Source: Mariniphaga sediminis
GTDB taxonomy: Bacteria > Bacteroidota > Bacteroidia > Bacteroidales > Prolixibacteraceae
Assembly: GCF_003573545.1 (NCBI RefSeq)
Contig: NZ_QWET01000007.1
Coordinates: 186,001-250,000 of the forward strand
Length of the DNA stretch: 64,000 nt
Reading direction: 5' to 3'
Shown here in pieces: positions 43,057-60,462 of the stretch (position 1 is its first letter; each line of letters opens with the position of its first letter). Under the pieces are notes generated by a model. The model made no database searches and was not told the DNA's origin. It worked only from the letters and a program-made list of their open reading frames with translations. A program made the translations under genes and the position numbers.

Positions 43057-43626
43057 ATGATTATGACTGAAGAGATGATAATTGCCGGTTTCGGAGGGCA
43101 GGGGGTGTTGTCCATGGGGAAAATACTTGCCTATTCAGGAATTATGGAAGACAAAGAGGTGACCTGGTTTCCGTCCTACGGGCCTGAAATGCGCGGAGGA
43201 ACAGCCAACGTAACGGTTATTGTGAGCGACAACCGTATTAGTTCGCCCGTTTTGCATGAGTTCGACACCGCTATCATTTTAAACCAGCAGAGTATGGATA
43301 AATTTGAAAAGGCCGTGAAACCGGGCGGTACTTTGCTTTACGATCCGAATGGTATTGTAAAACCACCTGTACGGAAAGATATTAATATTTACAGGATTGA
43401 AGGTACGAAAGCCGCGATAGAAATGGGAAATCCCAAGGTCTTTAACATGGTTGTGCTGGGAAGTTTTCTGAAGGTAAAACCTATTTTGAAGCTCGACAAT
43501 GTAGAAAAAGGTCTCGAGAAATCATTACCTGAACGTTATCATAAACTCATTCCGCTTAACCTGGAAGCCATTCAGAAAGGACAGGAAATTGTGGAAACGG
43601 TGCAGACAGTGGAAGTGGAGGTGTGA
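43057..43626 (+). CDS. vorC: 2-oxoacid:acceptor oxidoreductase, gamma subunit
   Basis: A 189-residue gamma subunit with EMIIAGFGGQGVLSMGK and SYGPEMRGGTANVTVIVS, the family signature, similar to iorB 26 kb away. Last gene of the ferredoxin-alpha-beta-gamma set. The start MIMTEEM has two ATG codons; either may be used. Confidence 0.88.
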   Translation: MIMTEEMIIAGFGGQGVLSMGKILAYSGIMEDKEVTWFPSYGPEMRGGTANVTVIVSDNRISSPVLHEFDTAIILNQQSMDKFEKAVKPGGTLLYDPNGIVKPPVRKDINIYRIEGTKAAIEMGNPKVFNMVVLGSFLKVKPILKLDNVEKGLEKSLPERYHKLIPLNLEAIQKGQEIVETVQTVEVEV

Positions 43627-43888: not shown

Positions 43889-44692
43889 TTATAGTTTTTT
43901 GTAAACTTTTACATAATCGACCATAAATGTGTCAGGGGCACAGGCATTTTTAATCCCTTCCAGAGTAGGGGGAATTTCCATGCTTAAGATCATGTATTGG
44001 TCGATGTGTGACAAGCCGTCGCTTAATTCGTGAAACTTTAACCCGTCAATATAGAAAGCATATTTTTCCGGGGTCCATTCAAGGGCAAATGTATGAAACC
44101 CTTCAGATAGTCCTTCCAACTCGCTTTTCAATTGTCCGCAGCTTTGCTGGTTTGGCCCGTACGCCCAATGAATACAATGGGTCATGTGATCGTCACCCAA
44201 ACCCTTGAAATATTCAAAAATATCTATTTCAGCCCCAAACGTTGCCGGATCTTCCCCTTTTGAAATCAGCGGAGACTGCATCCAGAATGCGGACCAGGGA
44301 CCGCTGCCTTTTTGCAGGCGGGCACGGCATTCAAAATACCCGTAAGTGGTGTTAAAGGTCTCGTAAGAACCGATTGCACTACCCATAATACTGTCTTTTT
44401 TTATGTCATACATCAGGTGCAGGTTCCCATTTCCTACGGACACCATGGAAGGATCGTTGTATCCGATACGGCGGGGCCCGGTTCCTCTTATTTTCCATTT
44501 TGTGGTATCCAGTTCCGACCCGTTAAACTGGTCCTCCCAAAACAAAGAATAACCTTCTTTTTCCGGATTAAAAATATCCTGCGAGAGTGCTGTGTTTTTA
44601 GGAGAAGTATTTTCGTCTGATTTTTTTTCTGATATCTGGCATGAAAATAAAGTGGCTGAGGATAGCATCAAGATTGTAAGTAGATGTTTCAT
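43889..44692 (-). CDS. Glycoside hydrolase family 16 lipoprotein
   Basis: A 267-residue GH16 enzyme (laminarinase/beta-1,3-1,4-glucanase/agarase class). The N-terminus MKHLLTILMLSSATLFSCQ is a lipoprotein signal (Cys18). The catalytic motif is AEIDIFEYF, Glu155 (nucleophile), Asp157 and Glu160 (acid/base). GH16 cuts internal beta-glucans or galactans. Last gene of the PUL, with its own -7 box, so its place in the same operon is uncertain; a glucan-type enzyme is odd beside riboside genes. Confidence 0.87.
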   Translation of the reverse strand: MKHLLTILMLSSATLFSCQISEKKSDENTSPKNTALSQDIFNPEKEGYSLFWEDQFNGSELDTTKWKIRGTGPRRIGYNDPSMVSVGNGNLHLMYDIKKDSIMGSAIGSYETFNTTYGYFECRARLQKGSGPWSAFWMQSPLISKGEDPATFGAEIDIFEYFKGLGDDHMTHCIHWAYGPNQQSCGQLKSELEGLSEGFHTFALEWTPEKYAFYIDGLKFHELSDGLSHIDQYMILSMEIPPTLEGIKNACAPDTFMVDYVKVYKKL

Positions 44693-44953: not shown

Positions 44954-46564
44954 CTAAAGTTTCAGCGTATGATGGTGTAGGGGAGAGGATTGCTGGATTT
45001 TTGAGTAGATTAGTGCTGAATGAATATTTACCAAATACCCCTCCGGAACATCGGATGCAACCATCTTTATTGTGTTTTTACCTTCTTCCAATTGATAATT
45101 CCAGTAAATATTTGTTTTCTGGATTAACGCTTGAGTGGGCAACGAAACATTTTCGACCAGTTGCCCGTTGACAAAAACATCTAGTTGCAGCTTATAATCG
45201 GGTAAAGTATTGTCGGTTTTTACAGCGTTTCCGCTCAAAACAATCCCTGCTCCTTCGAACTCAATGGTATATTCTTTTTCCTGTTCATCTATTCTTTTTC
45301 CCGCCATTGGCCACTGGTAAGAAATTCTTTCCAGTGGATAAAGGTTTTTAAAGGATTGCTCCAGTTCTAGGGGTTTCACTTTCTGATATACAATTTCCGC
45401 CGTATCCCCCTGAACTTTTCCACCATGTTTTTCTATCATTCCCAATGCATGGCGGTAGCTTAAGTTATAGGCATCGGTCAGCGAAAACGCTGCAAAGCTG
45501 AAATTCCTTTTTTCAACACGGTCGAGCCCCTGCTTCCAGTATTCGGGAATATTGCTGTAGCCCAACATCGTTCCCAAAATACCTGCTGCATTGGAGGGGT
45601 TACAGTCAGAGTCCTGTCCGGCCCGCGTACTTATATCAATTGTTTTTCCATAATCGCCATCTCCGTACAATAAACCCAGCACAATATAAGCTGCATTCAG
45701 GCTTGCATCGATGTTAAACGCATTGAAAACCCCATCGGGACAACCTTTTTCAGACGACCACTTTTTTTGAATTTCAAACCAGTTTTGTTTCCAGTCGCCG
45801 GGATACATTTTGTGCCATTGCACCACATCGGCAATCAACTGATAAAAACGACTTTCCTGCGGAATTGCTTTCAATGCTTCATTAACGACAAACGCCACAT
45901 CATCGGAAATGAAAGCCTGTGTGTACATTCCCGCAACAAACACACCGCCATACCAGCCATCTCCGAAATTCATAATGTGGCCGATACGATCGCAAATTTC
46001 AGAAGAGGCATTCATCATGCCCGGAGACATCAGCCCTGCAAAGTCTGATTCAATCTGAAAATCGATATCGTCGGCATGCGGGTTATTAAAGTAGTGCCCT
46101 GATTCGGGAGGCATAATCCCATTCAGAATATTGTACCGCGCGGCCTGATTGGCGTGCCAGAGCGGATACCGGGCATTCGCAAAGGCTTGGGCATGTAACG
46201 TATCGGATGCATCCAACCCATGCTTTTCGAAGACGGAAACAAAAGTCAGATCCATATACACATCGTCGTAAAGGCCCGGAAATTGATCGTACCAAAATTC
46301 TATCTGGTTTTCATCCCACGGTATAGGTACGTCATCATCAATCATGGTTCCCAGCCACTTGAACTCGGTTGGGCCGCCATAAGTACACCCTATGACCTGA
46401 CCGGCCCAACCGCCCTTTATTTTGTCTTCCAATACTGCTTTGGAAATTGTAATCTTTTGTCCGTCTGCAAATACTGTTGATTCCTTTTGTATAGTTTTGT
46501 CTTTGCACTCGATAAACGTGAAGACTAACAGTACAATGGGGGATAGTAAAACTTTCAAATTCAT
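44954..46564 (-). CDS. ADP-ribosylglycohydrolase-family lipoprotein
   Basis: A 536-residue exported protein; MNLKVLLSPIVLLVFTFIECKD is a lipoprotein signal (Cys20). The ADP-ribosylglycohydrolase fold is seen in GGWAGQVIGCTYGGP, YDDVYMDLTFVSVFEKHG and STRAGQDSDCNPSNAAGILG with the Mg-binding Asp pairs. A C-terminal domain of about 100 residues (beta-rich, FVNGQLVENVSLPTQ) looks like a carbohydrate-binding module. The family removes ADP-ribose or similar N-ribosides. Here, with nucleoside hydrolase and ribokinase, it may release ribose from ribosides outside or in the periplasm. Confidence 0.84.
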   Translation of the reverse strand: MNLKVLLSPIVLLVFTFIECKDKTIQKESTVFADGQKITISKAVLEDKIKGGWAGQVIGCTYGGPTEFKWLGTMIDDDVPIPWDENQIEFWYDQFPGLYDDVYMDLTFVSVFEKHGLDASDTLHAQAFANARYPLWHANQAARYNILNGIMPPESGHYFNNPHADDIDFQIESDFAGLMSPGMMNASSEICDRIGHIMNFGDGWYGGVFVAGMYTQAFISDDVAFVVNEALKAIPQESRFYQLIADVVQWHKMYPGDWKQNWFEIQKKWSSEKGCPDGVFNAFNIDASLNAAYIVLGLLYGDGDYGKTIDISTRAGQDSDCNPSNAAGILGTMLGYSNIPEYWKQGLDRVEKRNFSFAAFSLTDAYNLSYRHALGMIEKHGGKVQGDTAEIVYQKVKPLELEQSFKNLYPLERISYQWPMAGKRIDEQEKEYTIEFEGAGIVLSGNAVKTDNTLPDYKLQLDVFVNGQLVENVSLPTQALIQKTNIYWNYQLEEGKNTIKMVASDVPEGYLVNIHSALIYSKIQQSSPLHHHTLKL

Positions 46565-46651
46565 GATGCGGTCTAATTTGGTTATAAAAGTACAATGAAG
46601 GAATCAAGCCATCAAAAAAATAAATTTCAGTCTATATTTCAGAAAACATTT

Positions 46652-47653
46652 TCATTGTCCGGCATAGATAATTGAAATAATTCCGATGGCAAAAAGAATA
46701 AACATCAGCACAAGCATACCATTGGTTCCTTTGGGTGAATTTTTAAATTCTTTCCATATAAATACTCCCCACAAAGCTGCAACAAGTGTCGCTCCCTGGC
46801 CTAAACCATAAGAAATGGCTGCGCCTGCTTTTCCTGCAGCAATCAGGTTAAGTGAATTCCCAATGCCCCAAATTATTCCACCTAAAATACCTACGAGGTG
46901 TATGGAAAAACCTCCTTTAAAATATGCTTTGTAATGGGTGGGGTTTCCACTTATGGGCTTTCTCATTAATATGGTATTGAAGAGAAAATTGCTCAGGAAA
47001 ATACCGAGGGAAAAGATTACAACTGCTGTGTAAGGAGTCATCATTCCGGCAGCGGGATTCACAAAGTTATCCAGATCCATCGACCGGGCAACAAAACGGT
47101 AAAAAAACGACATTAATACACCTGCCAGCACAGAAATAAGTATTCCTTTGGTACTTACTTTCTGATTTACGGAAGAGGCTCTTTTGTAAGCCAGCGCGTT
47201 AATAATAATAGCGATGGTAATCACTCCAACTCCGAGAAATAAAAACACCGGGTCTCCCTTTTGGGAACCCAGATAGTTGATTACTACTCCGAGAACCAGG
47301 GCTAAACCAATTCCCACGGGAAAAGCGACAGCCATACCAGCAATAGCAATTGCCGTAGATAAAAGAATATTGGCTGCATTAAAAATAACACCTCCGAAAA
47401 AAGCACTGCCAATGTTGCTCCAGTCAGCCTGCCCCAAATCTGCTAAAAATCCTCTTCCGTTTTCGCCCCAACTGCCAAGGGTAAATGCAGAGATGATTGA
47501 AAGCAACAAAACGCCGGTAACATAGTCCCAGTAAAATAGTTCGTATCTCCATGTTTTTCCGGCAAGTTTTTGGGTATTTCCCCATGAGCCCCAGCATAAC
47601 ATGGTAATAAAGCAAAAAACAACCGCTAAAGGATAACTGCTTACAATATACAT
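46652..47653 (-). CDS. GRP-family sugar permease
   Basis: A 333-residue inner-membrane transporter with about ten transmembrane helices, matching the glucose/ribose-porter (GRP) type of the drug/metabolite transporter superfamily. WGSWGNTQKLAGKTWRYELFYWDYVTG and GAAISYGLGQGATLVAALWGVFIWKEF are characteristic. Next to ribokinase and nucleoside hydrolase, ribose is the likely cargo. Confidence 0.82.
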   Translation of the reverse strand: MYIVSSYPLAVVFCFITMLCWGSWGNTQKLAGKTWRYELFYWDYVTGVLLLSIISAFTLGSWGENGRGFLADLGQADWSNIGSAFFGGVIFNAANILLSTAIAIAGMAVAFPVGIGLALVLGVVINYLGSQKGDPVFLFLGVGVITIAIIINALAYKRASSVNQKVSTKGILISVLAGVLMSFFYRFVARSMDLDNFVNPAAGMMTPYTAVVIFSLGIFLSNFLFNTILMRKPISGNPTHYKAYFKGGFSIHLVGILGGIIWGIGNSLNLIAAGKAGAAISYGLGQGATLVAALWGVFIWKEFKNSPKGTNGMLVLMFILFAIGIISIIYAGQ

Positions 47654-47665
47654 GATCGTTTGATT

Positions 47666-48595
47666 TTAGTTGATTTCTTGTTTTCGATGATTTAAAAATT
47701 TCCTTACCTCTTTTTCTGAAGGTATTGAAGGTTGCGCTCCCATCCGTGTTACACAGATAGCTGCGGCGGCAGTTGCAAATTCAAGAGCTTCTTTCATACG
47801 GTGTCCTTTACTCAGCTCGGCAACCATGGCGCCGCAAAAGGTATCGCCGGCCGCCGTTGAATCTATCGTATCAACTTTAAAGGCCGGGATTTTCAACTGT
47901 TCTTCTTTATTTTTAAACATGCTGCCTTCTTTACCAAGAGTTAAAACTACATTCTGTACACCCATTATTAAAAGCTTATTAACAATGGCTTCCTCTCCCA
48001 GCTCTTCCATTTTTTCTCCGGATATAATTTCTGCTTCTGTTTCATTTACAACCAAAACATGCACTGCCTTCAGGATATCATCGTCTAAGTGGCAGGCCGG
48101 AGCAACGTTTAACAATATCTTCTTCCCTTTTTTTACGGCAATCTCACAAATTGTTTTTACCGTTTCATAAGGAATTTCCATTTGTAACACAATAAAATCT
48201 GCATTTGCAATTTTTTCTTCGACAGCAATTATATATTCAGGTGTAAGCTCTTTATTGGCGCCAGGGATTATTACAATGCTGTTTTCTCCTTTTTTATCCA
48301 CCCAAATCATCGCTGTCCCGGTTGGCTCATTGTCGGTAAGCAAGGATAAAGAAACATCCAACCCTTCGTTTTTGTAATACTGAAAAGCATTCTGCCCGTT
48401 AACATCATTGCCGAGGCTGGTAATAAAAGTGACGTCCCCACCTGCTCTGTGAGCAGCCAGTGCCTGGTTTGCCCCTTTTCCGCCCATGGCTTGCTGAAAC
48501 GACACACCTTCAATTGTTTCACCCGCAACAGGGAATTGTTCCATTGTTGCAATTAAATCGGCATTAGAGCTTCCTATAACTAAAATTTTATCCAT
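47666..48595 (-). CDS. rbsK: Ribokinase
   Basis: A 309-residue PfkB-family kinase forming ribose 5-phosphate. GSSNADLIATMEQFPVAGETIEG and GGKGANQALAAHRAGG are the N-terminal signatures; DSTAAGDTFCGAMVAELSKG carries the catalytic Asp. Normal length. It begins 6 bp after nucleoside hydrolase and ends 13 bp before the permease, so these three are co-transcribed. Confidence 0.93.
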   Translation of the reverse strand: MDKILVIGSSNADLIATMEQFPVAGETIEGVSFQQAMGGKGANQALAAHRAGGDVTFITSLGNDVNGQNAFQYYKNEGLDVSLSLLTDNEPTGTAMIWVDKKGENSIVIIPGANKELTPEYIIAVEEKIANADFIVLQMEIPYETVKTICEIAVKKGKKILLNVAPACHLDDDILKAVHVLVVNETEAEIISGEKMEELGEEAIVNKLLIMGVQNVVLTLGKEGSMFKNKEEQLKIPAFKVDTIDSTAAGDTFCGAMVAELSKGHRMKEALEFATAAAAICVTRMGAQPSIPSEKEVRKFLNHRKQEIN

Positions 48596-48601
48596 AACAA
48601 T

Positions 48602-49648
48602 TTATTGATTCTCCTCCCTTTTTCCAGTTACTGTTTGGATTAAAGCATTCAGAGTATATTCTATATTTGATTCATCCACCTTTAAGTACCGATGCATCCC
48701 TTCTTTCGCTGGAACAAATTTACTATGTCCTTCATCATCAATGGTTATTGTACCGTTCGAAGATATACGGAAATAGTTTTTATGTGGCTCAACTGCATAA
48801 AGAACCGAAGTAAGATCCCACGTTTGCCTGTCATAAGGCATTTCTCCGTAAAGTTTATAAGATACACAGAGAGGATGCCTGGAAGAATTGTTAAAATCAT
48901 TTAGGATACTCTGATGCGGATACAGTAATTTATTTCCTACCTCCCATCCGCTGGCAATAATTTTAGTAGGCCACTTTTCAAAAACAGTTTGAGCCGCTGG
49001 CAAATCCTGGACAATATTCCATTCAGGAAAGTCAAACTCATTTCCATACAAGCCTCCCATTACCGACAGAAATTTTACTTTCTTTTTCACCAGTTCTATA
49101 CCAGCCAAATTACTAAATTGGTCTGGTTCGGAATGGAGTAGTCTTTCCAGATTTGTTTCGGGGCCGACGGCAACAATGATAACAGAACTATCCTTTTGGG
49201 AAGATAAAAGTTCACGCATTAAAATATATCCTTTTGGTATACTGTCTTTTATGGATCTTCTTGGCATCAGAATATTTTGCCCGTCAACACTTGTCTCTAA
49301 AGTTTGACGAAGATAACTGCCATCTTCCGGATTAACTCCATCATAAACATATCCAAGAGGAATATCCGGAATGTTATTAAAGTTACAATAGCCATCAACA
49401 TATTCTATTGCAAACGGGTTTGCTTTGCTGAGACTTATTCCGAGTAAGTTTATTTTGCCTTGCTTGTGGTAATTTAACAGCATCTGAAGTGCAAGGACGT
49501 CATCAATATCATTGCCTAAATCAGTGTCGAATATTACCTGTATCGGTTGTTTCTCATGCTTTTCGTTGTTCGAAGGTTGGGCTTTTCTGGCCGGGCTGTT
49601 GCAAGCCGCCATTATAACAACCAATATAAAAATCGTATACCTGTTCAT
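48602..49648 (-). CDS. Nucleoside hydrolase lipoprotein
   Basis: A 348-residue exported hydrolase; MNRYTIFILVVIMAACNS is a lipoprotein signal (Cys16). DTDLGNDIDDVLALQMLL is the calcium-binding Asp cluster (family consensus DTDxGxDD), and a C-terminal YDRQTWDLTSVLYAVEP follows. It would split nucleosides into ribose and base in the periplasm or at the surface. Confidence 0.9.
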   Translation of the reverse strand: MNRYTIFILVVIMAACNSPARKAQPSNNEKHEKQPIQVIFDTDLGNDIDDVLALQMLLNYHKQGKINLLGISLSKANPFAIEYVDGYCNFNNIPDIPLGYVYDGVNPEDGSYLRQTLETSVDGQNILMPRRSIKDSIPKGYILMRELLSSQKDSSVIIVAVGPETNLERLLHSEPDQFSNLAGIELVKKKVKFLSVMGGLYGNEFDFPEWNIVQDLPAAQTVFEKWPTKIIASGWEVGNKLLYPHQSILNDFNNSSRHPLCVSYKLYGEMPYDRQTWDLTSVLYAVEPHKNYFRISSNGTITIDDEGHSKFVPAKEGMHRYLKVDESNIEYTLNALIQTVTGKREENQ

Positions 49649-49653
49649 AATTT

Positions 49654-51285
49654 TTAGTTTGGAATTTTATATTTCAATGTTTTATCATGTTTTGGATCAT
49701 CAAAAATTGTTGTGTCAATCTCAAAATTATCAATTTTGCTGTCCAATCCAAGGTAGCCAATTGGGTGAATGCCTCCATTAAAATAATTAGTATTGGCGAA
49801 CCGGATAGAGGGCAACATCCCAGCGGGATCGAGAACTGAAATAGCTATAATATACTTTCCCGGGGTAATCGGTTGGTCAATTAACAAAGACTCATTTATT
49901 ATATAAACAGGAGGCTCAATCAGGTATTTTTCTTTTTCAATGCTCCAGTTTTCTCCAGGCATCCATTGGGATATTTTAACAGAATCCAGCATTTTACTCC
50001 ATACTTTTTTATGGGTAGACGCATCGAGCAGGCTTATTTCAACTGGCCAATCATAATAAAATGGTGATGAACCTTTGTTTGTCAGTTTAAATTGAATATT
50101 AAAAGGGGTACCTTTTTTAATTTGGCGAGGGTAATCAAATTCAGACAATACAAATCTATATCCCAGAGATTTTTGAATTAAGTCGGCATTCGGAATAAAT
50201 TCCGGATCGTTAAAATTGGCCCATGTTATTCCTCCCAAATGATTGCAATGCAGATTTCGAATCTGTTCAATAATTACCTGGCGTGTTGCCTCATCATTGG
50301 CACAATCTTCGAAACTCCTGAATCCCTGCGATTGTAAATTCCCCCAATTCCAGGTAACTTCTCCGCCTATAGGCTGAGTTTTCCACCGGTCTTCCAATTT
50401 GAGCATTTCATTGTACCCTCGGTCTATTTCCTGCTCTATAGCCCACGAATCCCAATATATGCCAAACTCATAATCTTCAAATTCATAAGCATAACGTACC
50501 ATCACTTTTTTGTTCTTAAAGGCTTTTGAAAAGGCATCGCCTAAAATTTTTTCAATACCAGGAATCCATGTTCGGTTGGCAACATGCTTGGGCTCATCGT
50601 GAGGAGGCCAATATGTGGAGATGTCGGGATCATGATGTTCTCCCCATTCTCCAATAATTCCCATTTCAACATATGCCACACGCGGATCATTATCCCAGGC
50701 TTTCCCCATTTTTTCAATCAAGTTCATAACTCTTTCCGGGAAAGATGGATCAAAATAACCTCCTCTTATAGGTTTAATGGAATCCCCGGGTTCAACCATT
50801 GCACCTACTGAACCTGGAATCTGTTTGTAGGGAGAATCGTATTCAGGTAACATATCATCTGCCCAGTGGGTTCCATTCAAATCATCCGGGTTGTATGGGT
50901 CTTGAGGTTGGCCTCCGTGCCAAGGTTCCAGCCACACAATAAATACTCTTGGAATGACTTTCATATTAATGTCTTCAACACCTTCCCAACGATAATTGCT
51001 GTATTCAATTATTTTATCAACTCCATCGGTAATGCTGTTTTCCACCCTGTCCCATGGCATATACTCTTTTATCATTGTTCCATAAGGGTATGGATATTCG
51101 TTCCGTTTTATATCAACACCAGGGTTGAAATATTCCCTGAATCCCTTCATCGGATTTCGCAAAGCACGATTGTATTCCTCAAATGAAACAGATACATTTT
51201 TATTGGAAACCGATATTTTGTATTGAGCAAATACGATTGAGTTTAAGAAGAATAGAAATACAATAAAAACTAATATTCTTTTCAT
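49654..51285 (-). CDS. DUF4874/DUF4832 protein, exported, paralogue 2
   Basis: A 543-residue exported protein (signal MKRILVFIVFLFFLNSIVFA) with the DUF4874 N-terminal half (NPMKGFREYFNPG) and DUF4832 C-terminal half. It is clearly related along its length to the next gene. IIGEWGEHHDP (Glu near 213/217) and QPIGGEVTWNWG (Glu309) are conserved in both, spaced as the two catalytic Glu in clan-A glycosidases. This suggests an uncharacterised glycosidase; it is only inference. It lies 4 bp from its paralogue in the same PUL. Confidence 0.75.
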   Translation of the reverse strand: MKRILVFIVFLFFLNSIVFAQYKISVSNKNVSVSFEEYNRALRNPMKGFREYFNPGVDIKRNEYPYPYGTMIKEYMPWDRVENSITDGVDKIIEYSNYRWEGVEDINMKVIPRVFIVWLEPWHGGQPQDPYNPDDLNGTHWADDMLPEYDSPYKQIPGSVGAMVEPGDSIKPIRGGYFDPSFPERVMNLIEKMGKAWDNDPRVAYVEMGIIGEWGEHHDPDISTYWPPHDEPKHVANRTWIPGIEKILGDAFSKAFKNKKVMVRYAYEFEDYEFGIYWDSWAIEQEIDRGYNEMLKLEDRWKTQPIGGEVTWNWGNLQSQGFRSFEDCANDEATRQVIIEQIRNLHCNHLGGITWANFNDPEFIPNADLIQKSLGYRFVLSEFDYPRQIKKGTPFNIQFKLTNKGSSPFYYDWPVEISLLDASTHKKVWSKMLDSVKISQWMPGENWSIEKEKYLIEPPVYIINESLLIDQPITPGKYIIAISVLDPAGMLPSIRFANTNYFNGGIHPIGYLGLDSKIDNFEIDTTIFDDPKHDKTLKYKIPN

Positions 51286-51288
51286 TGA

Positions 51289-52917
51289 CTAATTATTAAT
51301 TACATATTTCAATGTTTTGTCGCCGGCTATGTCATCAAATAGCTTAGAGTCTATTTTGAAATTATCGATATCCATATCAATTCCAACATAGCCTATAGGA
51401 TGCCTTCCTCCTTCAAAATAATTTCTTGTCGCAAACCTTATGGAAGGCAGCATCCCGGCAGGGTCCAGAATTGCTATTGAAAGTATATATTTACCTGGCT
51501 CAATATTGGATTCGATATTTAAATTTTTAGTTATTGTATAAGTTTTAGCTTCTTGATCATACGAATTTACAGAGGCTTTCCAATTATCTCCAGGCATCCA
51601 TTCGGTAATATTTACATCATCCAATATGGTTGACCACACTGGTTTTTGCGTATCTATATCAAGAAGAGAAATTTCGACAGGCCAATTATAATAGAACGGA
51701 GAAGAACCAGTGTTCACTATGCTAAAATTAATATCGAATGGAACATCTGATTTTATTTTGGTTGGGTAACTGAATTTTTTCAGGACAAAACGATATCCCA
51801 GTATTTTCTGTATCTGGGAAATATTATCGAGAAATTCTTTATTGGAGAAATCAGCCCAGGTTACTCCTCCCAGATGATTTGTATGCAAAGTGCGAATCTG
51901 GTTTATTATGAGTTGACGTGTCGAACCATTGGCAACACAATCTTCCAGACTACGATAGCCTGCACTGTAAAGGCTCCCCCAATTCCATGTTATTTCACCT
52001 CCCATGGGCTGCGTCTTCCATCTGTTGGGAGAAAATTTTTGGATTGAATTATAACCACGTTCCTCCTCTTCATCAATAGCAAAAGAATCCCAGTAGTTAC
52101 CAAATTCATAATCCTGAAAATCGTATGCATACCGCACCATGACTTTTTTATTCTTAAATGCCTCAGAAAAAGCATCACCCAATACTTTTTCAATACCTGG
52201 AATCCATGTACGGTTATCCACATGATAATCCTGGTGAATGGGTTTCCAGTAGTTTGATATACAGGGATCATGGTGCTCCCCCCACTCTCCGATAATTCCC
52301 ATCTCGATATAAGCCACCCGAGGGTCGTTATCCCATGCTTCCCCCATTTTTTTGACAAGTTCTTTTATCCGGTCAGAGAATGAAGGATCGAAATATCCCC
52401 CCGTACTTGGAGTGTCTTCATCTTCAGAACGCTTCACCGGAGGGAAATCAGAGGGCCAGTGCCAACCATTTAAATCATCGGGATTGTCAGTGTATGTATT
52501 TTTTGCATATCCGCCATTGTATTTTTCCATCCAAACAATATAGGGGCGGGGAATAACTTTCATATTAATGTCTTCAACACCTTCCCAACGATGGTTGCTG
52601 TATGCAATCACCTTTTCAACTCCATCTGACTCTATGTTTTCCATCATATTCCATTGCATATACTCTTTTACTATTGAGCCAAAGGGTAGGGGATATTCAG
52701 TGCGCTTGGTGTCATAACCCGGGCCAAAGTATTCCCGCAACCCCTTCATAGGGTTGCGGAAAGCCTTAGGATATTCATATGGAGAAACATAGACAACTCC
52801 ATCAAATACTTCGGTATCGGTTATATCGGCCATTGGGTTATCATCATCCTTTGAGCATGCTGCCAGTACGACAACAAAAACAAAGCTTCCTGCAATTAAT
52901 TTTAAAAGATGTATCAT
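51289..52917 (-). CDS. DUF4874/DUF4832 lipoprotein, paralogue 1
   Basis: A 542-residue lipoprotein (MIHLLKLIAGSFVFVVVLAACSKDDD; Cys21). Same domain plan as the next gene: NPMKGLREYFGPG, IIGEWGEHHDP, GGEITWNWG and the C-terminal GSSPFYYNWPVEISLLD beta-rich part. The lipid anchor and acidic stretch after Cys suggest export to the cell surface. Two nearly matching copies side by side point to a duplication and probably to different substrates or sides of the membrane. Confidence 0.76.
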   Translation of the reverse strand: MIHLLKLIAGSFVFVVVLAACSKDDDNPMADITDTEVFDGVVYVSPYEYPKAFRNPMKGLREYFGPGYDTKRTEYPLPFGSIVKEYMQWNMMENIESDGVEKVIAYSNHRWEGVEDINMKVIPRPYIVWMEKYNGGYAKNTYTDNPDDLNGWHWPSDFPPVKRSEDEDTPSTGGYFDPSFSDRIKELVKKMGEAWDNDPRVAYIEMGIIGEWGEHHDPCISNYWKPIHQDYHVDNRTWIPGIEKVLGDAFSEAFKNKKVMVRYAYDFQDYEFGNYWDSFAIDEEEERGYNSIQKFSPNRWKTQPMGGEITWNWGSLYSAGYRSLEDCVANGSTRQLIINQIRTLHTNHLGGVTWADFSNKEFLDNISQIQKILGYRFVLKKFSYPTKIKSDVPFDINFSIVNTGSSPFYYNWPVEISLLDIDTQKPVWSTILDDVNITEWMPGDNWKASVNSYDQEAKTYTITKNLNIESNIEPGKYILSIAILDPAGMLPSIRFATRNYFEGGRHPIGYVGIDMDIDNFKIDSKLFDDIAGDKTLKYVINN

Positions 52918-52932
52918 TTTTTATTTGGCAAT

Positions 52933-54381
52933 TTAATATCCCGGGTTTTGATCTCCCTTCATTGCATCATTCGCATCAATAGCAATTTGCGGAATGGGAT
53001 AAACTGTTTTCTGATTCGACCCAATGTTAATCCCATTTCCGGGATAAGCAGTCTGTACCTGTTCATTAAGCTTTCTGAAGCGGATTAAGTCAAAACGACG
53101 GTGCCGTTCACAGCACAGTTCATGTAAGCGTTCTTCTAACAAAACATCCGAAAATTCGGACACAGACAATCCGTCACTTTCTGTTATACTTGCTAAACCG
53201 GCCCGGGTACGTACTTCATTTAAATAGTCATATTTTTTACCAGATGAATCATCCAGGTTATTCAATGCTTCGGAAGCCATTAAAAGTACATCGGCATAAC
53301 GCATATATATATAATTTAAGTCGTCATCTTCAATTTGATTGCCATAATTTGCATCGTAATATTTTTTTGTAGCAGGTGGCGACTGAACAATTCCTTTATA
53401 CTCTGTCCAGAAGAATTCCGTTTTCCTTCTGTCATTATTGTCATACGAATCGTAAAGATATTGAGTTGGTCCAAAACCTCCCCAACCAAAACCTCCGGCT
53501 GTAGGGCCACCTCCGCCCCGTGGTCCCCAGTATGAGGATTGTATACTCCCTTCAAGCCCCCAATATCCAGAATGACTCCACTGAACTTCAAAAATATTCT
53601 CATACTCTTCATTTTTATGCTCAGGGTCAAAAATATCTGCATAGTTTTGATACAAATGAAAATTCCCAATGACCTTATTTAGTGCTTCAAGTGCTTTAGC
53701 AGATTTACCCCATTGCAAATAAACTCTACCTAATAATGCATTGGCAGCATAACTTGTAGCACGACCTTTGTCGTTACTCTCAGTCCATTGTTCAGGAAGA
53801 TTTTCGGCAGCATAGTGCAAGTCCTCTGTAATAAGTTCATAAACTTCATCAACCGATTCACTCCGTGGTTTGGCAATTTCACTTTTATCAACGGAAGCCG
53901 ATGTCCATATTGGTACCCGCCCATACATTCTGGCTAGTTCAAAATAAAATATTCCGCGTAAGAACCTGGCTTGCGCAATCATCGAATTTTTCTGTTCATT
54001 GGAAATAGATGTATTATCCGGCATGTCAACTATTATATTGGCACACTTTACACCCTCGTAGCAAAATACGTAATGATTATATAAAAAGGGATGATTTGCA
54101 GTATAAGTATAGTACATTAATTCAACATATGCTGCCCAACTCAAATCATAAGGTTGAACCTCATCTGTCCCAAATTCACCTAAAACAATCGGGAGTTTTT
54201 CACCAGTAACCTCCTGGAGTTTTGCATAAGCAGCAATTAAAGCAGCATCCCAGTCTTCTGCAGTAGTAAACGAATTTTCTGGAGTTAGCGAACTTTTGGC
54301 CGTTTCGTCCAGGAAATCTTCACAGGACATTGAAGAAACCAGCAGAAAAGTTATACTTATGATATATAATAATTTTTTCAT
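52933..54381 (-). CDS. SusD/RagB-family outer-membrane lipoprotein
   Basis: A 482-residue surface lipoprotein (MKKLLYIISITFLLVSSMSCEDF; Cys20) that forms the lid on SusC and binds the ligand. The FLDETAKSSLTPENSFTTAEDWDAAL start, helical TPR-like core (NNLDDSSGKKYDYLNEVRTRAGL) and LLEERLHELCCERHRRFDLIRF segment are diagnostic. It follows SusC by 29 bp as usual. Confidence 0.92.
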   Translation of the reverse strand: MKKLLYIISITFLLVSSMSCEDFLDETAKSSLTPENSFTTAEDWDAALIAAYAKLQEVTGEKLPIVLGEFGTDEVQPYDLSWAAYVELMYYTYTANHPFLYNHYVFCYEGVKCANIIVDMPDNTSISNEQKNSMIAQARFLRGIFYFELARMYGRVPIWTSASVDKSEIAKPRSESVDEVYELITEDLHYAAENLPEQWTESNDKGRATSYAANALLGRVYLQWGKSAKALEALNKVIGNFHLYQNYADIFDPEHKNEEYENIFEVQWSHSGYWGLEGSIQSSYWGPRGGGGPTAGGFGWGGFGPTQYLYDSYDNNDRRKTEFFWTEYKGIVQSPPATKKYYDANYGNQIEDDDLNYIYMRYADVLLMASEALNNLDDSSGKKYDYLNEVRTRAGLASITESDGLSVSEFSDVLLEERLHELCCERHRRFDLIRFRKLNEQVQTAYPGNGINIGSNQKTVYPIPQIAIDANDAMKGDQNPGY

Positions 54382-54409
54382 AATGTTTTATTTACTTTTT
54401 TGACAACGC

Positions 54410-57343
54410 TTAAAAATTAATTGAAACACCACCAATAAATGCCCTGGCTCCTGGATAGGTGTTGGACTGCTGGGAAGCTTCAACATCATATCCTGAATAT
54501 TTAGTAAAAGTATACAGGTTTTGAACGGAGATAAAGCCACGTATGCTAGTGGCTTTTATATTATCAGTCCACCTGTGAGGAAGAGTGTAACCAAGCTCCA
54601 GGTTTTTTATCCGGATAAAAGTACCATCTTCGAGGTTGGCATTTGTTCCGTCTCCATTGGAGTATGAACTTCCAATTCTTGGGGCAGGATATTTATTGCT
54701 CGGGCGCTCTTCCTTCCAGTAGTTATTATAATAATCAACACTTGAGTTTCCCCAGGTATTATAAGAATTAAAAAAGCGGAGCATTGAGTTGTTTATGTAG
54801 TAACCACCTGCATAATTGATGAAAACAACAAGGTCGAGCCCTTTATATTTGAAAGTGTTTGACATTCCTCCATAATACTTTGGAGTACTTTGTCCGCAAA
54901 ATGTGCGATCATCACTATTTATTTGATTATCCGGAGTCAAATCCTTTATTTTTCTGTCTCCAGGCTGCGCATTATAAATTGCAGCCTCCGAAGATTCATT
55001 CATCTGCCAAATTCCATCAGACTCAAGCAAATAATACTCACCCAGTGAATGACCTATGAAAATACTTTTATTGATATCCGTTTTACCATCATAAAGTTCA
55101 ACTACATTGTTATGGTTATAAGTGAAATTGAAAGAAGTAGTCCATTGGAAATTATATGTATTTACATTGACTGTATTAATCGTTAATTCAATACCACTAT
55201 TATCCAGGATGCCTACGTTTGTAAGCGAAGATTGGTATCCGGATTCGAGAGGCAATATAACAGACCATAGAAGATCAGTAGATCGTTTATAATAATATTC
55301 AATACTACCGGCAATGTGGTTTTTAAAGAATCCATAATCAAGGGCGATATCAACTTGGCTTGATTTTTCCCAGGTTAAATTAGGGTTGCTAATAGAGGTA
55401 TATGTTGCACCGGTATAAAGGTTTCCATTAAGTACATAGTTGTTGTTTTCACCCCCTCTGGAAACAAGTGCCGAGTACCTGTAGTCCCCGATGGACTGAT
55501 TCCCAAGCATTCCCGCGCTTATGCGTAATTTTAGATTATCGATTTTATCAAAATTTTTCATGAAGTCTTCTTCAGTAATTCTCCATGCAGCAGCCAAAGA
55601 AGGAAAATATCCCCAACGGTGCCCCGGAGCGAACTTTGAAGAACCATCGGCACGCATGGTAAACGTAAGTAAATAGCGCTCTTTATAATTATAATTTGCC
55701 CGGATATAAAAAGAAGTTAGGGTAGATGCTGAAGCATAAGAGTTGTTAGGACCATATTCACTTCCTCCGCCAAGATTATAATATTTTGTAATGGGATCGA
55801 TTCCTTTAGCCTGAGCTAAAGAATGTTGGTATTCCGATTTTGATGCTGAAGCTCCTCCCATTACCTTGATTTTATGTACATCAAAACTATTTTCGTAGGT
55901 AATGGTGTTTTCTGTTTGCCAGTAACGATTTTTGCTGTTGGAAATACTTGCAACTCCTTCAGAAGAATAGTGCTGTCCCATGCGCGGATCCTCGTATTCA
56001 TTTGTAACATTGAATCCCATCTGTCCGGCGTTATCTGTCTTTATTTTCAATTTTTCAACAGGCTCAAATTCAATATAAAAGGAGCCGTTCATGTTCGTTC
56101 TTTGGGTTGTGCGGTCCAGAAGATTGACAATTGCAACAGGGTTTGCTTTTGTATTCAGAAACCCGTCAAAGTATTCTCCATCGGTATCGTAGATTGGAGC
56201 CGTAGGCTGAGAAGATATTGCACTATACATGGTTCCATAAAGTTCATCTGATTCTTCGTTTATATTCTTAATCTTAGATTCCATGAAGTTAAAGCGCACT
56301 CCCATATTTATCCAGTCATTCAGTTTGCTGTCGTTATTATAACGTAAGGTTAACCGGTTATACCACGAATTTTTTACAACACCTTCCTGATCATAATAAT
56401 CAAGGCCAAGAAAATGGGTTGATTTCTCATTGCCCCCCGAAACGGTGGCGTTGTAATTTTGAAAACTTCCAGGTTGGGTTACCGCATTTTGCCAGTCGGT
56501 TGTTTCTCCGCGACTGAGTTGCAACAATTCAGCAGTAGTCCAGGTATAATTCTGTCCTGATGTTGTCACAAGATCATAATATTGCTGCGAATTCATTAAA
56601 TCCATCTTGTTCATCATATTGAGTGCTCCTCCCTGAACATTAAAAGAAACCCTTGTTTTACCAGCTGATCCCTTTTTGGTAGTGATAAGAATTACACCAT
56701 TTGATCCGCGGTTTCCATAAATTGATGCTGCTGATGCATCTTTAAGGATTTCGATTGATTCAATATCTCCGGTTGCAACATCTCCAAGTGAAGACGGAAT
56801 ACCATCGACTATTACTAAAGGGGAATTACCAGCATTTACAGAGCCTTTCCCACGTATAACAATGGATGCGTCTGCCCCGGGTTTTGCACTTGGCTGAGTA
56901 ACCTGAACACCCGCTGCCATCCCTTGAAGGGCATTGCCTGCTAGTCCTACTTTAGTGTTTTTAAGGTCATCTGATTTAACGGATGCTATAGAGCCCGTCA
57001 GGTCACTCTTTTTTGAGGTTCCATATCCAATAACTACAACATCCTCAAGGTCATAGTTGTCAGGAATCATGCTCACATTGATTTTTCCCTGTCCGTTGTA
57101 GGTTATCTCCTGTTTAATCATTCCAATAAACGAATATACCAGGATGTCATTTTTAGCAATATTCATTGAATACTGCCCATTTACATCAGTTGTAACCCCT
57201 GTTTGGGTCCCTTTTATAATAACAGTAACACCCACTAATGGATTTGATTCAGAATCCACTACGGTTCCTGAGACTCTGTTTTGAGCAAAAGCAATAGAAA
57301 AGCTTCCCAAAAACATTAATAATACCAGAATATTTCTTTTCAT
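54410..57343 (-). CDS. SusC/RagA-family TonB-linked outer-membrane transporter
   Basis: A 977-residue TonB-dependent receptor. Signal peptide MKRNILVLLMFLGSFSIAFA, carboxypeptidase-like beta-sandwich (RVSGTVVDSESNPLVGVTVIIKG), plug domain (GAADASIVIRGKGS-type, SPLVIVDGIPSSLGDVATGDIESIEILKDASAASIYG), then the 22-strand barrel ending in GVSINF. It imports the ligand with SusD. Length is normal for SusC. Confidence 0.94.
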   Translation of the reverse strand: MKRNILVLLMFLGSFSIAFAQNRVSGTVVDSESNPLVGVTVIIKGTQTGVTTDVNGQYSMNIAKNDILVYSFIGMIKQEITYNGQGKINVSMIPDNYDLEDVVVIGYGTSKKSDLTGSIASVKSDDLKNTKVGLAGNALQGMAAGVQVTQPSAKPGADASIVIRGKGSVNAGNSPLVIVDGIPSSLGDVATGDIESIEILKDASAASIYGNRGSNGVILITTKKGSAGKTRVSFNVQGGALNMMNKMDLMNSQQYYDLVTTSGQNYTWTTAELLQLSRGETTDWQNAVTQPGSFQNYNATVSGGNEKSTHFLGLDYYDQEGVVKNSWYNRLTLRYNNDSKLNDWINMGVRFNFMESKIKNINEESDELYGTMYSAISSQPTAPIYDTDGEYFDGFLNTKANPVAIVNLLDRTTQRTNMNGSFYIEFEPVEKLKIKTDNAGQMGFNVTNEYEDPRMGQHYSSEGVASISNSKNRYWQTENTITYENSFDVHKIKVMGGASASKSEYQHSLAQAKGIDPITKYYNLGGGSEYGPNNSYASASTLTSFYIRANYNYKERYLLTFTMRADGSSKFAPGHRWGYFPSLAAAWRITEEDFMKNFDKIDNLKLRISAGMLGNQSIGDYRYSALVSRGGENNNYVLNGNLYTGATYTSISNPNLTWEKSSQVDIALDYGFFKNHIAGSIEYYYKRSTDLLWSVILPLESGYQSSLTNVGILDNSGIELTINTVNVNTYNFQWTTSFNFTYNHNNVVELYDGKTDINKSIFIGHSLGEYYLLESDGIWQMNESSEAAIYNAQPGDRKIKDLTPDNQINSDDRTFCGQSTPKYYGGMSNTFKYKGLDLVVFINYAGGYYINNSMLRFFNSYNTWGNSSVDYYNNYWKEERPSNKYPAPRIGSSYSNGDGTNANLEDGTFIRIKNLELGYTLPHRWTDNIKATSIRGFISVQNLYTFTKYSGYDVEASQQSNTYPGARAFIGGVSINF

Positions 57344-57367
57344 AATTATTTTTGAACTAGTTTTTTG

Positions 57368-58531
57368 TTAAAATTGACGAATTGGTCTTGCTGCAATTGC
57401 CCAAACATCGCATGGAGCTGCACCTGTAATTAGTGTTTCTGATTCCCAGAAGTTTACATAGTGGTATGCCCATGCCCAGTTAGAGCCGGGAATAACAGAT
57501 GAGGTCCAGTAGTTTTGAGCCGGTACAAATTCGTAGGCATTTGCAAGAGTGGCCCTGTAATTGAATAATTCTGTCATTTCATTGAGGGAGCCGAGGAACC
57601 AATCATTATATATAATTCCATTAATTTCTACAGAATATTGGCCACATAGTTCTGCGACAGTGGGTTCTGCCGAGTTTCCTGCAGCACGCCACAATGCAAT
57701 GCCATCAATCAAAATATCAGTATTGTTTTTTCCTGTAAAAATATCTTCCGATACACCAGATGCATATGGATCCACTTGAATGCTCGGGCCAAATACTTGT
57801 TCATTCACAACATTCTCTTGTGCTGCAATCAAACCATGAACTCCGTTATCTGAAGTATAAAACACAACTCCGCCTCCAATTTGATCGCCTACATTTACCG
57901 GAATGTTAATGGTACCCATATTACAGGTTTTTTTCCCCCGTAGAAGAGTAATATTATTCATTCCGTAGCATCCGTCCGGAACGGTAAAAGATACTCCATC
58001 AGTTGCCATATCTGTTTCTGCAACATAAGAAATTCCTTGTGGATAATAGTCTGACTCAAAAAGTACTTGATCTCCATTCATAAATCCTTCACCAGTTATA
58101 ACAAGATCTTCCCCAGATTCGGCAGATGCAGGGACCGAAAGATTATCAATAGTGAAGACAAAGGCTACAAAAAGGTGTTCGCCAAGAACCGTTGTCAGAT
58201 TATTACGCGTAACTGACACTTCGTACTCACCGCCTGCAATCTCCGGGACAAAAATTTTAATCCCGTAGTTGTCTGCGGACATAACAGGGGCAGTAAAATC
58301 AGCTTCCTCTTCTAAGGATCGGCAAGAAATGGAATCTTCAGAAGAAAAGCCAATACCATTAATATAAACATTCCTGCCAGGAATGGTGCTGCTCTGAGAT
58401 GGCATGCTCACGTACTTTATAACAGGAGAAATTGCATCTCCGATCAGAATGGTTGCCTCATCCTCTTTGCAGCTTGTTGTTATAAGTAAAAGTGTAAAGA
58501 AGATGAAGATTAAGTTAGAAATTCTTTTCAT
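57368..58531 (-). CDS. IPT/TIG-domain lipoprotein with Lcl C-terminal domain
   Basis: A 387-residue surface lipoprotein (MKRISNLIFIFFTLLLITTSCK; Cys21). Two or three IPT/TIG immunoglobulin-like units span about 35-215 (SSTIPGRNVYINGIGFSSEDS, SAESGEDLVITGEGFMNGD). The C-terminal 150 residues (IGGGVVFYTSDNGVHGLIAAQ, YNDWFLGSLNEMTEL, YWTSSVIPGSNWAWAYHYVNF) fit the Lcl/DUF1566 carbohydrate-binding-like domain. First gene of the PUL transcript, in the place where SusE/SusF-type glycan-binding proteins are often found. Confidence 0.83.
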   Translation of the reverse strand: MKRISNLIFIFFTLLLITTSCKEDEATILIGDAISPVIKYVSMPSQSSTIPGRNVYINGIGFSSEDSISCRSLEEEADFTAPVMSADNYGIKIFVPEIAGGEYEVSVTRNNLTTVLGEHLFVAFVFTIDNLSVPASAESGEDLVITGEGFMNGDQVLFESDYYPQGISYVAETDMATDGVSFTVPDGCYGMNNITLLRGKKTCNMGTINIPVNVGDQIGGGVVFYTSDNGVHGLIAAQENVVNEQVFGPSIQVDPYASGVSEDIFTGKNNTDILIDGIALWRAAGNSAEPTVAELCGQYSVEINGIIYNDWFLGSLNEMTELFNYRATLANAYEFVPAQNYWTSSVIPGSNWAWAYHYVNFWESETLITGAAPCDVWAIAARPIRQF

Positions 58532-58917: not shown

Positions 58918-58948
58918 CAAACATAGGAAACAGAAACTATTTGTACAA
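58918..58948 (-). promoter_or_regulatory. PUL promoter (TTG-N20-TATGTTTG)
   Basis: On the minus strand TTG (58948-58946) is followed after 20 bp by TATGTTTG (58925-58918), matching TTG-N19-20-TAnnTTTG. The -33 element lies inside the operator palindrome, so a bound LacI-type repressor would block RNA polymerase. Confidence 0.7.
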
Positions 58949-58959
58949 ACGTTTGCGCA
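58942..58959. promoter_or_regulatory. LacI-type operator 1, at the PUL promoter
   Basis: TGTACAAACGTTTGCGCA is an 18-bp palindrome around a central CG, with CAAACGTTTG perfect, the form used by LacI-family proteins. It covers the -33 element of the PUL promoter. Its reverse complement differs from operator 2 in two positions only. Confidence 0.75.
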
Positions 58960-59283: not shown

Positions 59284-60300
59284 ATGGCCACACATAAAGT
59301 AAGTATAACAGACATCGCACAAAAGACTGGACTTTCCACAACAACTGTTTCAAGGGTTTTAAGTGGAAAGGCCGAACAATACCGCATTGGTAAAAAATCG
59401 CAGCAAAAAGTAAAAGAGGCAGCTAAAGAGATGCATTATGTTCCCAATCATTTTGCCGCCAACCTGCGTACCGGAAAAAGCAATACCATTGCACTTATTC
59501 TTCCATCGCTCAGTAACCCATTCTTTGCATCTATTGCGAGCGAAATAAATGCTGAAATCAGGAGGTTTGGCTACATTACTATTATTAGCGACAGCGACGA
59601 AAACCCGGAGATTGAAAAAATGGAGCTGGAGCAATTAAGGGCACGGAATATCGAAGGCCTGGTTATTGCCCCCTGCAGTGACCACTGGGAGCACATTCAG
59701 GAACTATATGAAGAGGGGTTGCCTGTGGTTTGTGTCGATCGTTATTTTGAAGATTTGGATATTCCTTATGTTTCAACTGATAATTACGAAGGGGCTAAAA
59801 TGGCTACCAGGCACTTAGTCGAAAACGGACACAAAGCTATTTCCTGTATACAGGGGGTTCGTTCTTCTACTCCAAACAAGTTGAGGGTAAAAGGTTTTAC
59901 AGAAACAATGAATGATGCGGGGCTACATGATTACAGTGTGGTTGGCGACGATTTTACCGTGCAGAATGGTTACCTTGAAACGAAATTGCTGCTTCAGCAA
60001 GGGAAGCGGCCAACGGCCCTGTTTGCCCTGAGTAATACCATTGCAATGGGGTGTATGAAAGCCTTAAAAGAAGAAAATATCCGTATCCCGGATGACATCT
60101 CGCTGATAACATTTGACGAACACCCGTACCTCGATTATTTGGCGACTCCTCTCTCTTGTGTTGCGCAGCCTGTTAGTGACATCAGTAAAATAGCCATCAA
60201 ATTTCTTTTTGCGAAATTAGACAATGGCGATTTTAAACCCAGTCAGGTGTTGCTTAAACCCAAAATACAAATAAAGGAATCTGTTGGGAAAATGAGATAG
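59284..60300 (+). CDS. LacI-family transcriptional regulator of the PUL
   Basis: A 338-residue repressor. N-terminal helix-turn-helix and hinge (VSITDIAQKTGLSTTTVSRVLSGK; RTGKSNTIALILPSLSNPF) and the sugar-binding periplasmic-protein-like domain to the end (LFALSNTIAMGCMKALKEENIRIPDDISLITFDEHPYLDYLATPLSCVAQPV). Divergent from the PUL, which begins 752 bp away with operator 1. The ligand is probably ribose or a riboside, judged from the neighbours. Its own promoter carries operator 2. Confidence 0.9.
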   Translation: MATHKVSITDIAQKTGLSTTTVSRVLSGKAEQYRIGKKSQQKVKEAAKEMHYVPNHFAANLRTGKSNTIALILPSLSNPFFASIASEINAEIRRFGYITIISDSDENPEIEKMELEQLRARNIEGLVIAPCSDHWEHIQELYEEGLPVVCVDRYFEDLDIPYVSTDNYEGAKMATRHLVENGHKAISCIQGVRSSTPNKLRVKGFTETMNDAGLHDYSVVGDDFTVQNGYLETKLLLQQGKRPTALFALSNTIAMGCMKALKEENIRIPDDISLITFDEHPYLDYLATPLSCVAQPVSDISKIAIKFLFAKLDNGDFKPSQVLLKPKIQIKESVGKMR

Positions 60301-60387: not shown

Positions 60388-60462
60388 TGGGAACAACTGG
60401 ATTCGAACCAGTGACCCCCTGCTTGTAAGGCAGGTGCTCTGAACCAGCTGAGCTATGCTCCC
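60388..60462 (-). tRNA. tRNA-Val (anticodon TAC)
   Basis: The minus strand reads GGGAGCATAGCTCAGCTGGT at the 5' end and forms a full cloverleaf: acceptor GGGAGCA/TGTTCCC, D arm AGCTCAGCTGGTTCAGAGC, anticodon stem CCTGC/GCAGG with loop CTTACAA (anticodon TAC), and T arm CTGGTTCGAATCCAG. CCA is not encoded. The promoter TTG-N19-TATATTTG is 43 bp upstream. Confidence 0.96.

Follow-up and report, generated by a model that had tools for sequence, protein, structure and literature searches.

A probable ribose-scavenging polysaccharide utilization locus with a DUF4832 pair in Mariniphaga sediminis

The rus locus of Bacteroides thetaiotaomicron (BT2803-2809) unites SusC/SusD, a ribokinase, a nucleoside-hydrolase-family protein, and a DMT-type permease, according to passages of two papers (PMC12596196, PMC10434189), and a passage of a third credits it with letting the strain use nucleotides and nucleosides (PMC11699363). 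Here, we describe a locus of Mariniphaga sediminis that shares these elements and comprises nine genes, all on the minus strand, at positions 44954 to 58531 of the window, the 64,000-nucleotide stretch of contig NZ_QWET01000007.1 that we analyzed. We consider it likely that this operon is a polysaccharide utilization locus (PUL) for ribose scavenging: it works like rus, as a variant and not a strict member of the rus-type ribose PULs. The proteins, assigned with Pfam and NCBIfam profiles at the profiles’ own cut-offs, are as follows, in operon order:

57368..58531, minus strand: IPT/TIG lipoprotein, the operon’s first gene (Pfam TIG, 32.3 bits, cut-off 20.9; SCKEDE after the signal), likely a surface glycan-binding protein
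54410..57343, minus strand: SusC-type TonB-dependent outer membrane transporter (TIGR04056, 878.5 bits, cut-off 368.25)
52933..54381, minus strand: SusD-type surface lipoprotein (SusD_RagB PF07980, 124.1 bits, cut-off 23.1)
51289..52917, minus strand: DUF4832b, a lipoprotein (AACSKDDD; DUF4832, 65.9 bits, cut-off 29.2)
49654..51285, minus strand: DUF4832a, the second old paralogue (PF16116, 56.5 bits, cut-off 29.2), with a signal peptide that lacks a lipobox in the window copy; presumably periplasmic
48602..49648, minus strand: nucleoside-hydrolase-family (NH) lipoprotein (IU_nuc_hydro PF01156, 78.6 bits, cut-off 34.2)
47666..48595, minus strand: ribokinase (TIGR02152, 339.3 bits, equivalog cut-off 299.65)
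46652..47653, minus strand: inner-membrane permease of the GRP/ureide-permease kind (Ureide_permease PF07168, 88.4 bits, cut-off 27)
44954..46564, minus strand: ADP-ribosylglycohydrolase-family exported protein, the last gene (ADP_ribosyl_GH PF03747, 116.3 bits, cut-off 26.2)

The intergenic gaps, in the same order, measure 24, 28, 15, 3, 5, 6, 12, and 87 bases, the widest standing before the ADP-ribosylglycohydrolase gene and the others spanning 3 to 28 bases. A first-pass annotation, made from the letters of the DNA, had described these nine genes on one strand with short gaps and had likened them to the ribose-scavenging system of B. thetaiotaomicron; both descriptions are borne out, as SusC/SusD, ribokinase, NH protein, and a DMT/GRP-type permease, the candidate genes for ribose uptake and phosphorylation among them, are all present. 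The “Lcl” label that it gave the IPT lipoprotein is not, since Lcl_C matches below cut-off only (17 bits, cut-off 34.9; E 0.0074). The “GRP-type” permease is there, yet its RhaT/GlcU match lies far below cut-off (49.7 against 319.6 bits) and its best family is Ureide_permease. Throughout the 5.8 Mb genome, PF03747 has a single match and PF01156 has two, the NH protein being one of them, and DUF4832 occurs in two copies, both at the operon and nowhere else.

The gene listing of rus in the relevant passage of PMC10434189 names a DUF4969 protein and no DUF4832, whereas the window has a DUF4832 pair. Compared with rus, the window locus thus adds this pair and the IPT lipoprotein, and its regulator belongs to the LacI family rather than to the RusR type. 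The DUF4969 gene of B. thetaiotaomicron may be an ADP-ribosylglycohydrolase gene. A literature search returned no paper linking DUF4832 to ribose, with the primary rus paper (Glowacki 2020), which may already show a DUF4832 branch, outside its coverage.

Conservation of the DUF4832 cassette

When 84,980 genomes, each representing one species, were scanned with the DUF4832 pair, 30 loci with DUF4832 emerged; resting on two short peptide patterns, the scan does not show absence beyond these. Within up to 10 kb on each side of DUF4832, SusD is found in 26 of the 30 loci, SusC and the permease in 24 each, the NH protein in 25 (26 including L057, where the overlap rule hides it), and the IPT lipoprotein, located before SusC, in 22. 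Ribokinase is present in 21 loci, every one of which also encodes the IPT lipoprotein, SusC, SusD, DUF4832, and the permease. Judged from these neighborhoods, the DUF4832 pair is a constant part of the relatives’ cassette, conserved as a unit, and not the unusual addition for which it was initially taken.

Many Bacteroidota share such a cluster; hosts of the 30 loci include Bacteroides congonensis (L044), Dysgonomonas sp. (L040), Sunxiuqinia indica (L046), Alistipes genomes, Sphingobacterium yanglingense, and several Chitinophagaceae. The PULs of L046, L044, L040, Alistipes, and Chitinophagaceae contain the same cassette as the window in much the same order. Unlike the window, DUF4832-type PULs show no ADP-ribosylglycohydrolase (0 of 30 loci), carry a glycoside hydrolase (GH) of family GH97 in 13 cases and GH127 in two, and encode a RusR-like regulator instead of LacI in nine loci, with LacI found in 11. 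Of 295 genomes sampled from the class, the window genome is the only one with a DUF4832b match at E 1e-30, which makes this a patchy family.

DUF4832 proteins as candidate glycoside hydrolases

DUF4832a and DUF4832b are, as their phylogeny indicates, two old paralogues. Maximum-likelihood analysis of 44 DUF4832 proteins, made without fused frames, resolves two clades (100/99) that track first versus second gene position, and the window copies sit in different clades. Only Sunxiuqinia departs from this pattern, as the first-position clade contains both of its copies; L047 and L058 have a lone copy apiece, and each clade holds one of these. The underlying alignment (A2) has 44 rows, the two window proteins plus 42 of 46 DUF4832 frames of 450 to 640 amino acids. 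Left out were the near-duplicate first copies of L038, L045, and L054 and a partial L061 frame, as well as L059, the fragmentary L060, and the fused frames, which are longer. In L061:1-5000 (Tannerellaceae), the cassette’s DUF4832 genes are broken over several reading frames.

The predicted model of DUF4832b (mean predicted local distance difference test [pLDDT] score, 89.8) displays a GH-A-like TIM barrel, a (beta/alpha)8 barrel as in clan GH-A, followed by a C-terminal beta domain. Conserved glutamates stand at strands 4 and 7 (our count of DSSP strands), as they do in clan GH-A (e.g., GH5) and in GH14-type beta-amylases: E205, at the end of strand 203-205, and E308, within 305-309, are each invariant in A2 (44/44 rows), and the loop after strand 4 contributes E214 (44/44) and E211 (42/44), together with Gly210 and Gly213 (44/44 each). 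We propose Glu205/211/214 and Glu308 as candidate catalytic residues of what the model suggests is probably an undescribed glycoside hydrolase. Identity to the GH-A/GH14-type fold matches is 6 to 13% over the aligned part, and those enzymes differ from DUF4832b in having no C-terminal DUF4832 beta domain. Ordinary DUF4832 proteins, of which 9 copies were found in 6 of the other genomes among 148 sampled, align with the window family over residues 365-530 only, which makes the Pfam label a poor guide to the barrel.

Fusions of DUF4832 with an NH domain are observed in six loci (L032, L044, L045, L055, L056, and, as a partial frame, L061), and one protein fuses NH with GH97 (L039:14608-17484). 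These architectures argue that DUF4832, NH, and the relatives’ GH97 act on one substrate. Two of the DUF4832-NH fusions, L055:9983-12574 and L056:8136-10709, lie outside a ribose cassette, that of L055 with an upstream TonB receptor-type gene.

Several observations weigh against a hydrolase devoted to ribose. Typical GH-A enzymes have an Asn preceding the strand-4 Glu, and none stands ahead of E205, E211, or E214 in DUF4832b (YIEMGIIGEWGEH), where residues 212-215 moreover have pLDDT below 50. The top-ranked fold match, 7upv, is a beta-amylase-type protein from a plant, and its title mentions noncatalytic adaptation, which makes a binding role possible. Searches of solved structures gave a chance match only with the single sequence of DUF4832b (E 0.98) and none up to E 10 with the DUF4832 profile. 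Among the nine loci without ribokinase, four are truncated by contig ends (L033, L051, L060, and L061) and L035 shows none; the remaining four (L055, L056, L058, and L059; 50 to 53% identity to the query) have DUF4832 without the cassette in the stretch covered, so DUF4832 is not everywhere tied to ribose genes. Finally, the permease’s best Pfam family, Ureide_permease, comprises plant ureide and base transporters, so that ribose is only its presumed cargo.

Riboside enzymes and the likely substrate

The NH protein was compared in an alignment of 29 rows (frames of 250 to 420 amino acids and the NH portions of three fusions). D43, D47, D49, D50, and D278, corresponding to the N-terminal Asp motif and C-terminal Asp of inosine-uridine nucleoside hydrolases, are retained in at least 95% of these rows. 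Nucleoside hydrolases have a leaving-group His directly before the C-terminal Asp; here, W277 precedes D278, again in at least 95% of rows.

The ADP-ribosylglycohydrolase was aligned with 29 of 36 related frames (A3, 30 rows), the seven omitted being longer or distant paralogues of 43 to 156 bits. E67, D100, D101, D318, and D320 occur in 30/30 rows; we take D100/D101 and D318/D320 to be the metal-binding Asp pairs and E67 the substrate Glu. DraG-type enzymes have Thr ligands beside the metal Asp pairs. In the A3 rows, position 99 is instead Y in 20, F in 5, and Q in 5, position 321 is Cys in 29 of 30, and the window copy reads YDDV and QDSDCN, the latter pairing with DDADSV when aligned to a DraG-type chain. 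These changes render ADP-ribose itself doubtful as a substrate, and both the NH protein and the ADP-ribosylglycohydrolase may, to judge from their active-site residues, have as substrates ribosides that are neither nucleosides nor ADP-ribose. A solved-structure search with the single ADP-ribosylglycohydrolase sequence gave no match. The lipid anchor initially ascribed to this protein is unsure in the window copy: the family is as described and the N terminus is hydrophobic, but the would-be lipobox reads FIEC, with Glu at -1, although a loose lipobox pattern is matched by 21 of the 30 A3 rows.

Among 149 genomes from the order, 16 have a match to this ADP-ribosylglycohydrolase at E 1e-30, the window’s own counted. 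We fetched 19 stretches (L062-L080) covering every match outside the window and observe ribokinase in 9 of the 13 that score at least 580 bits (L062-L074, of which L065 and L066 are short contigs) and in none of the six that score lower (L075-L080). In addition, 18 stretches around RusR-like genes, hand-picked from 48 distinct match rows mostly for high scores and long contigs, contain ribokinase in 17 cases, the permease in 14, and the ADP-ribosylglycohydrolase in 12. The protein therefore appears to be a frequent neighbor of ribose genes in other Bacteroidales, and its description as an unusual addition applies to DUF4832 loci but not beside ribokinase and the same permease elsewhere; together with DUF4832 we see it only in the window. 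Loci such as L063, L068, and L111 share ribokinase, permease, and the ADP-ribosylglycohydrolase subfamily with the window (45 to 55% identity for the latter) but differ in having no DUF4832, in many cases a RusR-like regulator, and SusC/SusD that are absent or just distantly similar. The nearest relative found of the window protein (66%) is in L062, where the locus encodes ribokinase, permease, several NH and Sde182-type NH-like proteins, GH5, and GH47.

Scavenging of nucleosides or nucleotides, toward which the first-pass annotation leaned, is in our judgment unlikely. In this reading, the NH protein would cleave nucleosides released by the turnover of RNA or NAD, the ADP-ribosylglycohydrolase would open ADP-ribosyl conjugates, and DUF4832 would be a binding or processing protein. 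The NH family match, the fusion of NH to DUF4832, the permease’s family, and the noncatalytic adaptation ascribed to the top fold match of DUF4832b agree with it, as does the nucleotide and nucleoside use that a passage of PMC11699363 attributes to rus. It is opposed by the Trp in place of the expected His, by the missing Thr ligands, by the lack of any nuclease or phosphatase family among ten window proteins scanned with Pfam, and by the enzymes that accompany the cassette in relatives. Two GH97 proteins were checked, one from L046 and one from L048, and are nearest to retaining alpha-galactosidase chains (3a24, 5e1q), that of L048 keeping Asp where 5e1q reads Gly; GH127 is present in L042 by Pfam and in L043 by similarity to L042; L034 has a GH109-like protein, and L046 has a sulfatase and an esterase-type protein. 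The GH97, GH127, sulfatase, and esterase make a ribose-bearing glycan or glycoside a more likely target than ADP-ribose or plain nucleosides. The first-pass annotation had seen a system for ribosides “rather than a polysaccharide,” with recognizable enzymes for N-ribosides and ribose only; neither statement is supported, given the hydrolase-like DUF4832b model and accessory enzymes that lean toward glycans or glycosides.

GH127, the beta-L-arabinofuranosidase family, also bears on whether the sugar is ribose at all. Substrates differ among PfkB kinases and among GRP-type permeases, and the PUL could serve a glycan without ribose, its kinase and permease handling another pentose or a branched sugar. 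We find this improbable: the kinase scores above the ribokinase equivalog cut-off, the best NCBIfam model of the LacI protein is RbsR (though below cut-off), and rus likewise contains a ribokinase and a DMT permease in the published passages (PMC12596196, PMC10434189).

In the ribose-scavenging scheme that we infer, from catalysis and substrate to inducer and protein locations, the IPT lipoprotein and SusD would bind a glycan or glycoside that carries ribose, DUF4832b, as a lipoprotein, would cleave it at the cell surface, and SusC would import the resulting pieces. Periplasmic DUF4832a and the NH-family protein, in the window genome also the ADP-ribosylglycohydrolase-family protein, would then free ribose, which the permease would carry into the cell for conversion to ribose-5-phosphate by ribokinase; the divergent LacI regulator would govern the operon via one operator. 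The DUF4832 pair, accordingly placed twice along this route, probably frees ribose from larger molecules.

As to the substrate, the Klebsiella O4 repeat consists of beta-D-ribofuranose (Ribf) and alpha-D-galactopyranose, and O7 joins Ribf to rhamnopyranose, as stated in a passage of PMC11231755. Together with the relatives’ enzymes, these O-polysaccharides suggest ribofuranose-containing polysaccharides or glycosides. An O4-like polymer as target would explain the alpha-galactosidase-type GH97 beside, or fused with, the relatives’ ribose enzymes, and the alpha-rhamnosidase that adjoins the ADP-ribosylglycohydrolase in L063 would be in keeping with Rha/Ribf polymers, of which O7 is an example. 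Only tentatively do we go further and propose that the N-terminal barrel of the DUF4832 proteins described here founds a new GH family for O-linked ribofuranose and that the PUL is a genuine polysaccharide locus, feeding on Ribf-containing bacterial surface polysaccharides. If true, missing enzymes for ribofuranose-containing glycans would receive names. DUF4832, a family of unknown function, becomes a specific enzyme candidate with a few named glutamates and one sugar, and ribose PULs may be more than nucleoside scavengers, with a branch in Bacteroidales, Sphingobacteriaceae, and Chitinophagaceae that would couple ribose uptake to an unrecognized hydrolase, often plus galactosidase-type or other glycan enzymes.

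Regulation and flanking genes

Upstream of the operon we observe two further features, neither of which the first-pass annotation mentioned:

59284..60300, plus strand: divergent LacI-family regulator (best NCBIfam match the RbsR model, below cut-off, 252 bits against 382)
58946..58955, no strand: putative LacI-type operator core CAAACGTTTG, palindromic, within TACAAACGTTTGCGC, in the LacI-to-IPT intergenic region; the same motif occurs by relatives’ LacI genes

The 11 LacI-bearing relatives were scanned for CAAACGWTTG, its reverse complement, or CAATCGATTG. Eight sites in seven loci lie within the 5.5 kb by LacI starts, versus six in 225 kb elsewhere, of which that of L036 is 3 bases beyond the counted stretch and two stand shortly before IPT genes. 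TTGYGC continues the motif in 7 of the 8 LacI-adjacent sites, and the full GCRCAAACGWTTGYGC is present in two. L039 and L041 lack the site, and the single one of L035 falls within the LacI frame; all nine RusR-type loci together yield one match, inside a ribokinase frame of L040. A putative LacI operator is thus common to the window and most LacI-bearing relatives. The 5.8 Mb window genome contains CAAACGWTTGYGC a single time, at this place; because the reversed pattern, used as a control, is likewise present a single time, it is the place and not the count that is special. Promoter and terminator scans gave results at chance level.

The RusR-like family (L048:682-2253 and relatives) comprises proteins of about 520 amino acids with no Pfam family above cut-off and weak TPR matches only. 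It adjoins ribokinase in many Bacteroidota loci, and we infer its identity with RusR from this place. No match to it was found in the window genome at E 1e-20 with five of six first-look candidates scored.

A defense or phage reading was dropped, PADLOC giving no family for P0001, P0003, or P0004 and PHROGs none for P0001. A GH16 lipoprotein gene (43889-44692, minus strand) lies downstream of the operon; it was rejected as a member, being 261 bases away, and the only GH16-like label among the compared loci is a weak one in L077. Farther along, 41163-42263 (plus strand) encodes a POR_N subunit of the 2-oxoacid:ferredoxin oxidoreductase kind, followed by same-strand frames at 42263-43051 and 43057-43626. 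On the other side, a tRNA gene (60388-60462, minus strand) is located just past the LacI gene and hence near the cassette.

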